A stretch of 64,000 nucleotides of DNA from the NCBI GenBank assembly GCA_017546165.1, contig JAFYXL010000033.1, forward strand, positions 1 through 64,000, read 5' to 3'. Under the pieces are notes generated by a model, which was not told the DNA's origin, did no database searches, and worked only from the letters and a program-made list of their open reading frames with translations. This document shows, piece after piece, positions 2,843 through 45,374 of this stretch. Position numbers and translations under genes: made by a program. How positions within the stretch are numbered: the first letter of the stretch is position 1; every line of letters begins with the position of its first letter. This DNA is from Clostridia bacterium. Lineage in GTDB: Bacteria > Bacillota > Clostridia > Monoglobales > Monoglobaceae.

Positions 2843-3490
2843 ATGATGACACCATTGGAGATTGAAAACAGAAAGTTTAAGAAAGAATTGTCAGGGTACA
2901 GCAAGGTTGAAGTTCAGGAATTCTTAGGCGTAATTGGAGAGAGCTATGAACTTATCTACAAAGAGAATCTTGCAAACAAAGACAAAATCAATATGCTTTC
3001 AAATGCTATAAAACAGTACAAGTCGATGGAAGAAACTCTCCAAAGTGCAATACTTGTTGCACAGAGTGCCGGAGATGAAGTTATTCAGAATGCTAAGAAG
3101 AGAGCTGAAAACATCATTGCTGATGCTGAGCAGAAGGCCTCACAGCTTTTGTCAGATGCAGGCCGTGAGGTTACACGTGTAAGCTATGAATATGAAGATA
3201 TGAAACGAAATGTTGAAGTTTTCAGAACAAGAATCATTTCGCTTCTTACGTCACAGCTTGATATAGTTAAAGAGTTTAATATGCCTGAAAACAAAAACAA
3301 GGTTGGGGAAATTAAGCTTGATACAGCTCCTGTAAAGCTTGACCCTGTATCGGAGGAAAAGCCACAAGAGGTTCTTTCTGCTCTTGAAAAGATTGAGAGA
3401 GTTACAATGGAACTTCCTAAGATTGTTGAAAATGAAAAAGGCGAATATGTAGCTGTCGAGGCCGAGGAAGAAGACAAACCGGCAGAATAA
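2843..3490 (+). CDS. divIVA: DivIVA-domain cell division/polarity protein
   Basis: The 215-residue protein begins with the DivIVA membrane-binding motif (PLEIENRKFKKELSGY, then VEVQEFLGVI), continues as a long coiled coil (about residues 30-140, rich in Ala/Lys/Glu heptads) and ends in an acidic tail. DivIVA proteins sense negative membrane curvature at septa and poles and recruit partners. Two in-frame ATGs occur at 2843 and 2846 behind AGGTGAT at 2831. The gene closes the ylm cluster and is followed by a stem-loop. A Wag31/GpsB-type role is possible, but its position favours DivIVA. Confidence 0.92.
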   Translation: MMTPLEIENRKFKKELSGYSKVEVQEFLGVIGESYELIYKENLANKDKINMLSNAIKQYKSMEETLQSAILVAQSAGDEVIQNAKKRAENIIADAEQKASQLLSDAGREVTRVSYEYEDMKRNVEVFRTRIISLLTSQLDIVKEFNMPENKNKVGEIKLDTAPVKLDPVSEEKPQEVLSALEKIERVTMELPKIVENEKGEYVAVEAEEEDKPAE

Positions 3491-3568: not shown

Positions 3569-4036
3569 ATGCTGAATTTATTATTGGGGATATGCATAGT
3601 GCTGGCGGACGCAGCGACAAAACTGCTGGCAATCAGATATCTTATGCCCGTTGATACCCTTCCTCTTTGGGAGGGTATATTTCACCTTACCTATGTTGAA
3701 AACCGGGGCGCAGCTTTTGGTATGATGCAAGGAGGCCGGGTATTTTTTATCGTTATTTCTATTTTGATAATAGGTGCAATGCTTTATGTGGCAAAAAGAT
3801 ATAAAAACCGGTCAAGATTTTTGGACCATGGCATAGTATTTATCACCGCGGGGGCCATTGGAAATATGATTGACCGGATTTTTCGTGGTTTTGTGGTGGA
3901 TTTTCTTGATTTTTGCCTTATTGATTACCCTGTCTTTAATGTAGCAGATATTTTTGTCTGCATAGGGGCGGGGCTTGTGGCCATATTCATAATCTTCTTT
4001 GAAGACAAAAAGGATTGTAAAAAGAATGAAAATTGA
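3569..4036 (+). CDS. lspA: Lipoprotein signal peptidase (signal peptidase II)
   Basis: This aspartic protease cleaves the signal peptide of prolipoproteins after lipid modification of Cys. From ATG 3569 it has 155 residues, four membrane segments and the family motifs: LADAATK (D14), YVENRGAAFG, GAIGNMIDR (catalytic D102) and FNVADIFVCIG (catalytic D127). A TTG at 3533 would add 12 residues, but it lies in the right arm of the preceding stem-loop; ATG 3569 has GGAG at 3555-3558 and fits better. The 3' end overlaps the next gene by 11 bases. Confidence 0.95.
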   Translation: MLNLLLGICIVLADAATKLLAIRYLMPVDTLPLWEGIFHLTYVENRGAAFGMMQGGRVFFIVISILIIGAMLYVAKRYKNRSRFLDHGIVFITAGAIGNMIDRIFRGFVVDFLDFCLIDYPVFNVADIFVCIGAGLVAIFIIFFEDKKDCKKNEN

Positions 4037-5664: not shown

Positions 5665-7623
5665 ATGGATTTTAAAGTTGTATCCAAGTACAAACCAAAT
5701 GGTGATCAGCCTCAGGCAATTGAAAAATTGACCCAAGGTGTACTTCGTGGTGACCGTTTTCAGACCTTGCTTGGTGTTACCGGTTCAGGCAAGACCTTTA
5801 CTATTTCCAATGTTATACAAAATGTGGGCAAACCAACCCTTGTACTTGCCCACAACAAAACCCTGGCAGCGCAGCTTTGCTCTGAGTTTAAGGAGATATT
5901 TCCTGAAAACGCAGTTGAATATTTTGTATCATATTATGACTACTATCAGCCTGAGGCGTACATCCCTCATTCTGATACCTATATTGAAAAGGACGCCCAG
6001 ACAAATGAGGACATAGATAAGCTCAGACACAGTGCTACTGCGGCTCTTTTTGAACGCAAGGATGTAATAATTGTTGCTAGCGTTTCCTGCATTTACGGCC
6101 TTGGAGACCCTATTGACTACAACAACATGGTGGTATCTTTGAGGGTTGGCAAAACAGCTGACCGTGACGAGGTCATACAAAAACTTATTGAAATACAGTA
6201 TGAGAGAAACGATATAAACTTCACACGCAATAAGTTCCGTGTGAGGGGAGATGTTATTGATGTATTTCCCTCCTATTCCAGCGGAAATGCCATAAGAATT
6301 GAATTTTTTGGTGACGAGGTTGACCGGATTGCTGAAATAAGTTCCGTAACCGGCGAGGTGATTTCAAACCTTAAGCATTGTGCTATCTATCCTGCATCCC
6401 ATTATGTTGCGGGCAAGGAAAAGCTTGACCGCGCTATCCCTGCGATTTTGGCTGAGATGGAGCAACAGGTTGAATTTTTCAAAGCGCAAGAAAAATTTAT
6501 TGAGGCACAGCGCATCAAGGAACGTACCAATTATGATATGGAAATGCTGAGGGAAACGGGATTTTGCCAAGGTATTGAAAACTATTCAAGACACATAAGC
6601 GGAAGAGAACCGGGAAGCCCACCATTTACTTTGCTTGATTATCTGCCAAATGACTTTTTGCTTGTGGTGGACGAGTCCCACGTGACAATCCCTCAGGTGA
6701 GAGCAATGTTTGCAGGGGACCGGGCAAGAAAAAACAATCTTGTGGAATATGGCTTTCGTCTGCCCTCTGCATATGACAATAGACCTCTTAATTTTGATGA
6801 GTTTTATGACCATATAAATCAGGCGATATTTGTAAGTGCTACTCCCTCGGAGTTTGAGACTGAGCGTTCAACCCAGGTGGTAGAGCAGGTAATAAGGCCA
6901 ACAGGTCTTCTTGACCCCAAAGTTGATATAAGACCTATAGAAGGACAGGTTGATGACTTGTACGGTGAAATTTGTGAAAGGGTGAAACGCAAGGAAAGAG
7001 TGCTTGTTACCACCCTTACAAAAAAGATGGCTGAACGCTTGACGGAATATTTTGAAGAGATGGGAGTCAAGGTCAGATACCTCCATTCCGAGGTTGAAAC
7101 CATAGAACGTATGGAGATAATCCGTGACCTTCGTCTGGGTGTGTTTGATGTGCTTGTAGGTATCAATTTGCTCCGTGAGGGCCTTGATATCCCGGAGGTG
7201 TCCTTGGTTGCGATACTTGATGCGGACAAAGAAGGCTTTTTAAGGTCTGATACATCTCTTATCCAGACAATAGGCAGAGCAGCACGAAATGCAGAAGGTA
7301 CCGTTATAATGTATGCGGACACAATAACAGGGTCAATGCATCGGGCCATTTCTGAAACTGAGCGTCGTCGAAAGATTCAGGCGGAATATAATAAGGAACA
7401 CGGCATCATACCCCGGACAATCAAAAAAGATGTCTATGAGATTATTGAAGCAACAGTTAAAGATGACCATAGGCCTGAAAAAGAGACGGGTGCAGAAAAG
7501 ATTTCGGAAAAAACAATTGCCGAGCTTACGATGGAGATGAAGAAAGCGGCAGAGCTGCTTCAGTTTGAGCTGGCAGCAAAAATTCGTGATGAGATAAACA
7601 GATTAAGACAGGACTTAAGTTAA
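5665..7623 (+). CDS. uvrB: UvrB, nucleotide excision repair helicase subunit
   Basis: UvrB receives damaged DNA from UvrA2, opens it with its beta-hairpin and recruits UvrC. The 652-residue protein is full length: Walker A GVTGSGKT (residues 37-44), beta-hairpin region [12 protein letters not shown] (about 92-103), DESHVT motif [10 protein letters not shown], the [17 protein letters not shown] helicase motifs, QTIGRAARN, and a C-terminal UVR coiled coil (about 610-650) that contacts UvrC. No uvrC is in the window. It starts 24 bases after radC. Confidence 0.98.
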
Positions 7624-30985: not shown

Positions 30986-32515
30986 ATGATTGCACAGGTA
31001 AACAGCGCTGCACTCTTTGGAATAGACGGATTTATCGTAGATGTTGAGACGGACATATCAAACGGCCTTCCGGCTTTTGATATTGTAGGTCTTCCTGACG
31101 CTGCGGTTAAGGAGTCAAAGGAACGTATCCGTGCTGCCATAAAAAATTCGGGGCTTACTATGCCATCAAAACGGATTACCCTTAATCTTGCACCGGCAGA
31201 TATCAAAAAAGAGGGCACACACTTTGATTTGTCCATTGCAGTTGGCATCCTTATAGCGTCTGAACAACTAAAGCAACCAACGCCGGATTCAGTATTTATG
31301 GGTGAGCTTTCACTGAACGGTGATTTAAGACGCATAAACGGAGTTTTGCCAATGGCAATTTCCGCTTACCAAAGGGGGATAAAGGCCATATACCTGCCTG
31401 AGGAAAATGCTCGTGAAGCTGCGGTCATTGAAGGACTTAAGGTTTATGGAGCAAAGTCTCTTAGAGATATTGTAATGCACTTTACAGGTGAGAAAAAGCT
31501 TTCGCCATACCGTGAAGAGAGAAACTTTTCAAAACCTGATGAAAATGAATATAAATATGATTTCAGGGATGTAAAAGGGCAGGTCTTTGTAAAACGTGCA
31601 CTTGAGATAGCGGCAGCGGGAGGCCACAACATACTGATGATTGGCCCGCCGGGGTCGGGCAAGACCATGATTGCGCAACGAATTCCCGGAATTTTGCCTG
31701 ATATGAGCTTTGACGAGGCCCTGGAGGTAACAAAAGTCCATAGTATAGCAGGACTTGTATCGGACAATCAGCCTCTTGTAAAGACAAGACCATTCAGACA
31801 TCCACATCATACAATTTCGTCGGTGGGACTGTCCGGAGGCGGAACAAATCCGCGACCGGGAGAAATCAGCCTTTCCCACAACGGCGTATTGTTTTTGGAT
31901 GAATTACCTGAGTTCAGACGAGATGCTCTGGAGGCTATGCGTCAGCCACTGGAGGATGGGGAAGTTACAATCACAAGAGCAAGCGGCACTGTTACATACC
32001 CGTGCAGCGTAATGCTTGTGGCATCAATGAATCCTTGCCCCTGTGGTTATTATGGAGATCCTACCAGGGAGTGTAGCTGTACACAGACTCAGATTATGAA
32101 GTATATGAGCAAAATCAGCGGCCCCCTTCTTGACAGAATTGACCTGCACATTGAGGTTCCGGCAGTAAAATATGAGGAGCTTGAAAAAAAGCAGGAGGGC
32201 GAATCTTCACAGGGTATAAAAACCAGGGTGGATTTGGCCCGTCAGGTGCAGCTTGAACGTTACAAATGCCGAGGGGTATATTCAAACAGTCAGCTCACAC
32301 CTGAACTGATGAAGCTACATTGTGAACTGGATAAAGAAACCAATGAACTTTTGCGTGAAGCGTACAATACGCTTGGACTCAGTGCAAGAGCCCACAATCG
32401 AATTTTAAAAGTGGCAAGAACCATTGCGGACCTTGCCGGAGAAGAAAAAATCAAAATGGAACACATAGCTGAGGCGATACAGTATCGGGCCCTGGACAAA
32501 AAGTTTTTTAACTAA
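30986..32515 (+). CDS. YifB/ComM-family Mg-chelatase-like AAA+ ATPase
   Basis: The 509-residue protein has an N-terminal Lon-protease-like domain (about 20-130; GLPAFDIVGLPDAAVKES), an AAA+ domain with Walker A GPPGSGKTM (about residue 217) and LFLDELPEF Walker B, a Cys-rich insert (NPCPCGYYGDP...CSC), and a C-terminal lid (LSARAHNRILKVARTIADL). ComM of this family is a helicase that extends branch migration of incoming DNA in natural transformation. Start ATG has AAAGGA upstream. No dprA or other competence gene is adjacent. Confidence 0.93.
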   Translation: MIAQVNSAALFGIDGFIVDVETDISNGLPAFDIVGLPDAAVKESKERIRAAIKNSGLTMPSKRITLNLAPADIKKEGTHFDLSIAVGILIASEQLKQPTPDSVFMGELSLNGDLRRINGVLPMAISAYQRGIKAIYLPEENAREAAVIEGLKVYGAKSLRDIVMHFTGEKKLSPYREERNFSKPDENEYKYDFRDVKGQVFVKRALEIAAAGGHNILMIGPPGSGKTMIAQRIPGILPDMSFDEALEVTKVHSIAGLVSDNQPLVKTRPFRHPHHTISSVGLSGGGTNPRPGEISLSHNGVLFLDELPEFRRDALEAMRQPLEDGEVTITRASGTVTYPCSVMLVASMNPCPCGYYGDPTRECSCTQTQIMKYMSKISGPLLDRIDLHIEVPAVKYEELEKKQEGESSQGIKTRVDLARQVQLERYKCRGVYSNSQLTPELMKLHCELDKETNELLREAYNTLGLSARAHNRILKVARTIADLAGEEKIKMEHIAEAIQYRALDKKFFN

Positions 32516-44460: not shown

Positions 44461-45147
44461 ATGCTTGGCACGGTTGTGAACTGCCTTGCTGTGGTTGTGG
44501 GCAGCACTCTGGGAATTATCTTAAAAAAAGGTTTACCTGAACGGATAAGCGCCGCTATTATGCAGGGGCTTGCACTTTGTGTCATGTATATTGGCATAAG
44601 TGGCGCCCTTGAAGGCAAAAATGTGCTGGTAGCAATATTGTCTATCGCCATTGGCGTATCAATTGGTGAAGCAATTGACCTTGATAAGCGCCTGGAGAAT
44701 TTGGGGAAAAGGCTTGAGTCGGCTGTCAGCAAAAACAGCGACGGAATGATTGCAAAGGGTTTTGTTGCGGCAAGTCTTTTGTTCTGTGTGGGAGCGATGA
44801 CTATTGTTGGGTCGCTTCAAAGTGGTTTGACAGGCAACCACGAAACCATTTTTGCAAAATCCCTTATTGATGGAATTGCCGCAATAGTTCTTGCATCAAC
44901 TATGGGAATAGGTGTTATGTTTTCGGCAGTATTTATTCTTGTTTATCAGGGCGCAATTACACTGTGTGCAGGGTTTTTGGCACCATTACTTACAGAAACA
45001 ATTATTGCGGAAATGACCTGCGTGGGTTCACTCCTCATTATTGGTCTTTCCTTTAATATGTTAAAAATCACCAGTATTAAGGTTATGAACTTCGTTCCGG
45101 CAGTTCTTATGCCTATAGTAATATATTGGATAATGAATGTATCCTAG
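44461..45147 (+). CDS. DUF554-family membrane protein
   Basis: The 228-residue protein has about six membrane segments and the DUF554 pattern: MLGTVVNCLAVVVGSTLG at the start, ALCVMYIGISGAL, SIAIGVSIGEAIDLD, FCVGAMTIVGSLQSGL and GIGVMFSAV. These proteins are annotated as uncharacterised membrane proteins (YdfK-like) and may be transporters; substrate unknown. It starts 18 bases after the Cys-rich Feo gene, so it may belong to the same transcript. The six-hairpin array begins at its stop codon. Confidence 0.88.
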   Translation: MLGTVVNCLAVVVGSTLGIILKKGLPERISAAIMQGLALCVMYIGISGALEGKNVLVAILSIAIGVSIGEAIDLDKRLENLGKRLESAVSKNSDGMIAKGFVAASLLFCVGAMTIVGSLQSGLTGNHETIFAKSLIDGIAAIVLASTMGIGVMFSAVFILVYQGAITLCAGFLAPLLTETIIAEMTCVGSLLIIGLSFNMLKITSIKVMNFVPAVLMPIVIYWIMNVS

Positions 45148-45316
45148 AGAAAAACACAATCAGTGTTTTTCTCTGTCAAAACAAGGCTTGACAGAGAAAT
45201 TGTGAAACAATTTCTCGATACTTCATTTGAACTAGGTTCTCAAAAAGTATTTTTACAAAATACTTTTTATAGCTGCAATTAAGCAGCTACGAAACATTGA
45301 TATAATCAATGTTTCG
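45146..45316. repeat. Run of six perfect hairpins
   Basis: The 227-base gap between the DUF554 gene and dut holds six perfect inverted repeats in a row: 45146-45157/45163-45174 (12 bp), 45171-45179/45188-45196 (9 bp), 45194-45203/45207-45216 (10 bp), 45242-45253/45257-45268 (12 bp), 45270-45276/45283-45289 (7 bp), 45290-45301/45305-45316 (12 bp). Neighbouring stems one to three share bases, so they are mutually exclusive in part. Only 45217-45241 is unpaired. No coding frame is evident. Confidence 0.85.
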
Positions 45317-45331
45317 ACAAAGAATCGTCGT

Positions 45332-45337
45332 TATAAT
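45332..45337 (+). promoter_or_regulatory. Possible -10 box for dut
   Basis: TATAAT, 38 bases before the start of dut, but no matching -35 box; the usual -35 position is occupied by the last hairpin of the array. Confidence 0.35.
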
Positions 45338-45374
45338 TGGTGTTTTTGAAAAAATTTGATGGAGGATAGAGAAA

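Follow-up and report, generated by a model that had tools for sequence, protein, structure and literature searches.

A hairpin array upstream of dut in a Clostridia genome as a probable copy of a dispersed, MITE-like mobile DNA element

The array of perfect hairpins lying between the DUF554 gene and dut in the window (the whole stretch of DNA that was analyzed, 64,000 nucleotides) very probably represents a single copy of a mobile DNA element that is MITE-like and non-autonomous. The element is dispersed, has defined ends, occupies different places in different species, and keeps its fold through compensatory changes, while the positions of its copies suggest that the element itself moves. Among the origins proposed for the array in the preliminary description, a dispersed repeat agrees with these observations and a dut leader does not, such that the interpretation given there is supported in part.

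The spacer at 45146–45316 contains, on the plus strand, all six of the perfect inverted repeats that had been described: hairpin 1 at 45146–45174 (12 bp arms, from the inverted-repeat search, and helix 2 in the pair counts), hairpin 2 at 45168–45199 (12 bp arms, helix 3), hairpin 3 at 45194–45216 (10 bp arms, helix 4), hairpin 4 at 45242–45268 (12 bp arms, helix 6), hairpin 5 at 45270–45289 (7 bp arms, helix 7) and hairpin 6 at 45290–45316 (12 bp arms, helix 8). The sharing of bases among the first three is likewise present, as hairpin 2 overlaps hairpins 1 and 3, and the family structure discussed below uses only the inner part of hairpin 2, at about 45174–45193. This is the only such cluster in the 64-kb window: of perfect inverted repeats whose arms reach at least 8 bp, the window has 25, and 5 of these fall within the spacer. 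None of 5000 dinucleotide shuffles of the 171-base spacer contained at least five repeats of at least 7 bp (the maximum was four, in two shuffles, compared to six in the real sequence), and the folding z-scores of the array are −10.4 on the plus strand and −11.4 on the minus strand. No terminator-like sites were found, and predictions place neither a strong promoter nor a strong terminator inside the element. The stems do differ from one another within the array, and the statement that they are not one repeat copied holds at that level, but the complete array is itself a repeat that has been copied.

A search with 45120–45340 as the query against its own genome (G000; 1.34 Mb in 54 contigs, 88% complete) recovered near-complete copies on contigs 37 (6626–6828, 94%) and 36 (3206–3403, 91%), as well as fragments on contigs 35, 29 and 33, bringing the near-complete copies in G000 to three, plus fragments. 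We refer to the array before dut as B-type (~200 bp), and to a sister element with the same plan as A-type (~184 bp); the latter was found first on contig 29 of G000, and again on contig 37, where it directly abuts a B-type copy. Full-length copies measure 184 bp (A-type) or about 205 bp (B-type), and carry no transposase gene. Across the nine genomes of the genus compared here (G000–G008, all incomplete, with assemblies 68–89% complete), the A-type is present in four others (G001, G004, G006 and G008) and the B-type in two others (G001 and G004), with neither found in G002, G003, G005 or G007. Several dispersed copies occupy non-orthologous sites, the only species-shared sites noticed being two (L144/L146 and L055/L056). 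Copies occur in both orientations relative to neighboring genes and, both in G000 and in sister species, adjoin unrelated genes, those following other copies including spmB/YigZ-family, lysC/OadG-like and ABC transporter/TspO genes. The copy in the window is 64–68% identical to the B copies of sister species, with every helix kept.

Beyond the genus, matches are weak or partial only, and the phage, plasmid and viral (IMG/VR) collections gave zero matches to the element. A pattern scan of named genomes found the A-type in Clostridia/Oscillospiraceae metagenome-assembled genomes from goat, sheep and water-deer gut, and in one further such genome. Matches to the A-type pattern in Pelatocladus and Methanogenium proved unrelated on inspection; those in the cyanobacterium Pelatocladus (L105 and L120) belong to a long palindromic repeat without relation to the element, TGACTTGATTGCAATACAGTCGG...CCCCACCCC, present in two copies and matching the pattern by chance. 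We also note a weak, half-element-like match from a different genus of the family (G029 contig 6, 4721–4807, L156); it has two of the three hairpins and may be a distant relative.

The true unit behind the array is the stretch 45131–45333 (plus strand, 203 bp, TAATGAATG...GTCGTTA), which recurs in the genome and takes in the last DUF554 codons. All 31 delimited copies start with TAAT and nearly all finish with TTA, the last base of the left flank being A in 31 of 31 and the first base of the right flank T in 29 of 31. Terminal inverted repeats are present but imperfect: a single pattern matches both A-type ends (TAATAGTAGTCGGTGAAAC / TAATCATTGTCGTGGAAAC), and in the window the right terminal strand AGAATCGTCGTTA (45321–45333, plus strand) has a reverse complement, TAACGACGATTCT, that corresponds to the left end.

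Two interrupted genes locate the point of entry. The DUF554 gene (PF04474; 44461–45147, plus strand) has its last four codons (MNVS) and stop inside the element, and joining its flanks without an added base gives ...IYWIIGVFEKI*, which matches ...IYWIIQLFEMLIK* in the relative G002, with the C-terminus after the join (...PIVIYWIIGVFEKI*) in register with ...PIPIYWIIQLFEMLIK* of G002. An A-type copy on contig 83 of G004 (31877–32059, L065) interrupts the integrase gene of an apparent integrative element, and joining the flanks brings back the integrase frame and a complete C-terminus (...HDLRHTTASLLILKGWQMKEISEWLGH..., Phage_integrase 2.4e-14). Since removing the element restores both frames, insertion would take place at A^T, which in many cases lies inside TATA; the sequence fits a 2-bp duplication of AT as well as the absence of any duplication. 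The right junction AT lies at 45333–45334 (from the flank tabulation and the DUF554 join), and the left junction AT at 45130–45131 (from the flank tabulation and the flank joins); the latter is the 2-bp target duplication under the AT reading, and in the case of no duplication the left boundary of the element shifts by one base. A TA target duplication, which was our first reading, breaks both the DUF554 and the integrase joins. Targeting of promoter −10 boxes, considered in view of TATAAT at the ends, was rejected in turn, as −35 boxes are not enriched there (3 observed compared to 1.1 expected from shuffling at a 5/6 match, and 6 compared to 7.9 at a 4/6 match).

RNAalifold, applied separately to the A-type and B-type alignments, returns an identical plan. 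In the first half, three hairpins are enclosed by a stem formed between the left terminal strand and an internal one, giving a four-way junction. A linker with TTGCAA (in the B copies of G000, TTTGAA) leads to the second half, in which another internal strand is followed by a further three hairpins and then by its pairing partner, the right terminal strand. In the copy in the window, the closing stems are AATGAATGTATC/GATACTTCATT and GGTTCT/AGAATC, all on the plus strand. In the consensus fold, the left terminal strand (45132–45143) is the outer strand of the stem closing the first half, and its inner complement (45217–45227) completes helix 1, followed by the linker TGAACTA (45228–45234, TTGCAA-type in sister species) and by GGTTCT (45235–45240), the inner strand of the stem closing the second half, which pairs with AGAATC (45321–45326) as helix 5. 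The bases at 45217–45241, earlier considered free, thus hold two strands that pair with the terminal strands of the element.

Covariation was assessed on MAFFT alignments of 10 B copies and 19 A copies. The proportion of paired cells is 98.2% (B) and 97.5% (A), a level reached by 0 of 500 shuffles and dropping to 34–49% in slid-structure controls, although this figure is favored by the fact that the consensus structure was derived from the same sequences. The stronger evidence is therefore provided by pairs changed on both sides, of which there are 21 (B) and 17 (A), spread over all eight helices, and the observed covariation score was unreached by any shuffle.

We consider it more likely that this fold is kept because the DNA itself needs it for mobility than because it shapes a particular RNA, since distinct G·T departures from pairing are no commoner than A·C departures (7 and 8, respectively, for the A-type, 4 and 9 for the B-type, and 11 and 17 in total, which are few events) and since copies lie in both orientations; the absence of −35 enrichment at the ends leans further in this direction. 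An enzyme supplied in trans would recognize the ends, the folded DNA, or both. More tentatively, the family could represent a class of mobile DNA that is transposed as two folded four-way junctions by a recombinase outside the three families tested below; in such a class the halves would be modules that can be exchanged for one another, and compensatory changes that preserve the DNA fold would be selected through mobility. A rather improbable alternative is a family of structured small RNAs or leader RNAs that has spread in the manner of a repeat and whose fold is maintained by a function of the transcript, such as regulation or service as a processing platform. The very strong covariation in all helices, the stability of the fold on either strand, and the position of some copies directly behind good −35/−10 promoters (for example G004:C82, TTGACT-18-TATAAT) would fit such a family; however, this reading sits poorly with the lack of a G·T excess, with −35 boxes no more frequent at the ends than in shuffled sequence, and with the two orientations relative to neighbors. 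In addition, four relatives of the genus are without the element, and Rfam 15 gave no match above the gathering score for the window and related loci, the sub-threshold matches being chance ones.

Still less probable is a neutral cluster of palindromes, perfected by fold-back template switching with no selection for structure. The stems are indeed very perfect, and there are collapsed copies, such as that at G004:C14, in which a perfectly complementary arm replaces the inner strand. However, stem changes between close copies are mostly one-sided (42 one-sided compared to 8 two-sided for the A-type, and 41 compared to 8 for the B-type), such that the double changes are not single mutational events, and the eight-helix plan is common to two sequence types. 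Close A copies show 121 differences in 51 unpaired columns, compared to 58 in 136 paired columns. Such an excess of unpaired and one-sided differences would follow from selection that maintains the stems in the lineage that spreads, with decay setting in once a copy has inserted. Single-hairpin derivatives lie on contig 14 of G004 (about 671–712, L176) and contig 14 of G001 (about 16665, L175); in both, the inner strand reproduces the terminal arm almost perfectly, a product to be expected of fold-back copying.

Whole halves have also been exchanged between the two types. Contig 12 of G001 carries a chimera of a B first half and an A second half, and contig 67 of G004 the reverse, an A first half with a B second half, each joined in the central linker; a 73-bp hybrid derivative is found on contig 68 of G004. 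The G001 contig 12 site has flanking sequence in common with a half-size element on contig 64 of G004, and is thus one site with different forms in the two species. This site lies in a promoter region (L144:291–413 for the half-size form in G004, and L146:260–449 for the B/A chimera in G001), and its two forms suggest that exchange may occur at an already occupied site.

Three transposase families were searched as carriers: IS630, Y1 and IS110. For RUP-like repeats mobilized by IS630, one expects TA to be duplicated at the target and the genome to encode an IS630 transposase. The IS630-type DDE_3 domain (PF13358) is absent from all nine genomes of the genus, and the TA reading breaks both tested genes, such that an IS630-mobilized, RUP-like repeat was rejected. 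Y1 transposases occur in five of the nine genomes, but in none of the carriers G004, G006 and G008, nor were they found in the most copy-rich genome; as they do not track the element, mobilization of the REP/BIME (RAYT) type was set aside. The IS110 DEDD transposase was not found in G000 and exceeds the cut-off only in G005 and G007, both without the element, which likewise speaks against an IS110-related origin. When unpaired A-type ends were searched for in the nine incomplete genomes, no longer, gene-carrying element was seen, and each A-type end that was located either came from a short element or a half-size or single-hairpin derivative, lay at the edge of a contig, or was a weak match resembling a chance one.

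With respect to the neighboring gene, dut (dUTPase, PF00692; 45375–45878, plus strand) starts 41 bp downstream of the element. In five of the eight relatives (G001, G004, G005, G006 and G008), about 25 nt or less separate the DUF554 stop from dut and there is no element, which is likewise absent from G002 and G007, where DUF554 and dut are arranged differently. A dut-specific cis-regulatory leader or attenuator, to which the position of the array just upstream of the dut ribosome-binding site lends some appeal, is therefore highly improbable, as the array is absent before dut in every relative examined (G001, G002 and G004–G008) and other copies precede unrelated genes. A dut leader or dut-specific element thus also falls by the refuting condition that the preliminary description had set. 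The element would instead have landed in the last DUF554 codons, so that a new C-terminus took the place of the old one and hairpins spanning about 200 bp came to lie before dut, and any putative effect on dut, such as attenuation of read-through or RNase III cleavage, would be a by-product of co-transcription.

MITE-like elements are short (about 100–200 bp), gene-less and dispersed, with terminal inverted repeats, a target duplication, and ends in common with an autonomous element from which the transposase comes. Short structured bacterial repeats are usually single stem-loops of little-known origin, and BOX elements are built in boxA-boxB-boxC modules. The present family resembles bacterial MITEs (Correia/NEMIS, RUP, ERIC and RPE; PMC2229807), which are also 100–200 bp long, gene-less, intergenic or sometimes intragenic, and have terminal inverted repeats and strong predicted structure. 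However, the 5′ end of bacterial MITEs pairs with the 3′ end to give a long stem-loop (Delihas, PMC2229807), whereas the ends of our element each pair with an internal strand and enclose three hairpins, giving two separate four-way junctions; RUP and Correia, moreover, typically show a TA duplication, whereas the element enters at A^T. Caulobacter CIR repeats (PMC2229807) similarly have two structured arms and a linker, no pairing of 5′ and 3′ ends, and an obscure mobility mechanism, but each of their arms is one long inverted repeat, they carry GANTC motifs, and they lack terminal inverted repeats, in contrast to the three-hairpin junctions and imperfect inverted-repeat ends of our element. 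Membership in CIR was rejected, as GAATC occurs in the window's copy at the right end only, outside loops, and the halves are three-hairpin junctions, not simple stems. Pneumococcal BOX elements (PMC3049150) are likewise interspersed in Firmicutes, structure-rich and probably parasitic; our element, in contrast, has no A-B(n)-C module order, but exchanges whole halves with a fixed three-hairpin plan in each. Finally, REP/BIME sequences with RAYT (PMC2817692, PMC3733652) share paired palindromes and a proposed mobilization, in the form of structured DNA, by a tyrosine transposase acting in trans, but REPs are 20–40 bp long with GTAG or CGTC tags, from which the element is set apart by its size and by Y1 transposases not tracking it.

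We found no description of this element family in the open-access literature, and the reading we favor is that of a new MITE-like family of gut Clostridia with an unusual structure, for which a search of three transposase families gave no carrier. As it keeps an eight-helix, two-domain fold by compensatory change while apparently moving within one genus and swapping whole halves, it provides a tractable case for asking whether a mobilizing enzyme recognizes DNA secondary structure itself. It also counsels caution: when hairpins are arrayed ahead of a gene such as dut, one should check whether they form a repeat before labeling them a regulatory RNA.

Finally, some stretches of G000 depart from the full plan. 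Contig 35 carries, at 3640–3743 (L161), a B-type second half with hairpin 4 different or missing, among phage-structural-looking genes. Degraded remnants of the element lie on contig 8 and on contig 33, the latter (L013:1495–1680) being an element-like stretch directly before dnaA with a B-like start and an A-like TTGCAATC...CCACGATGATTATA end.
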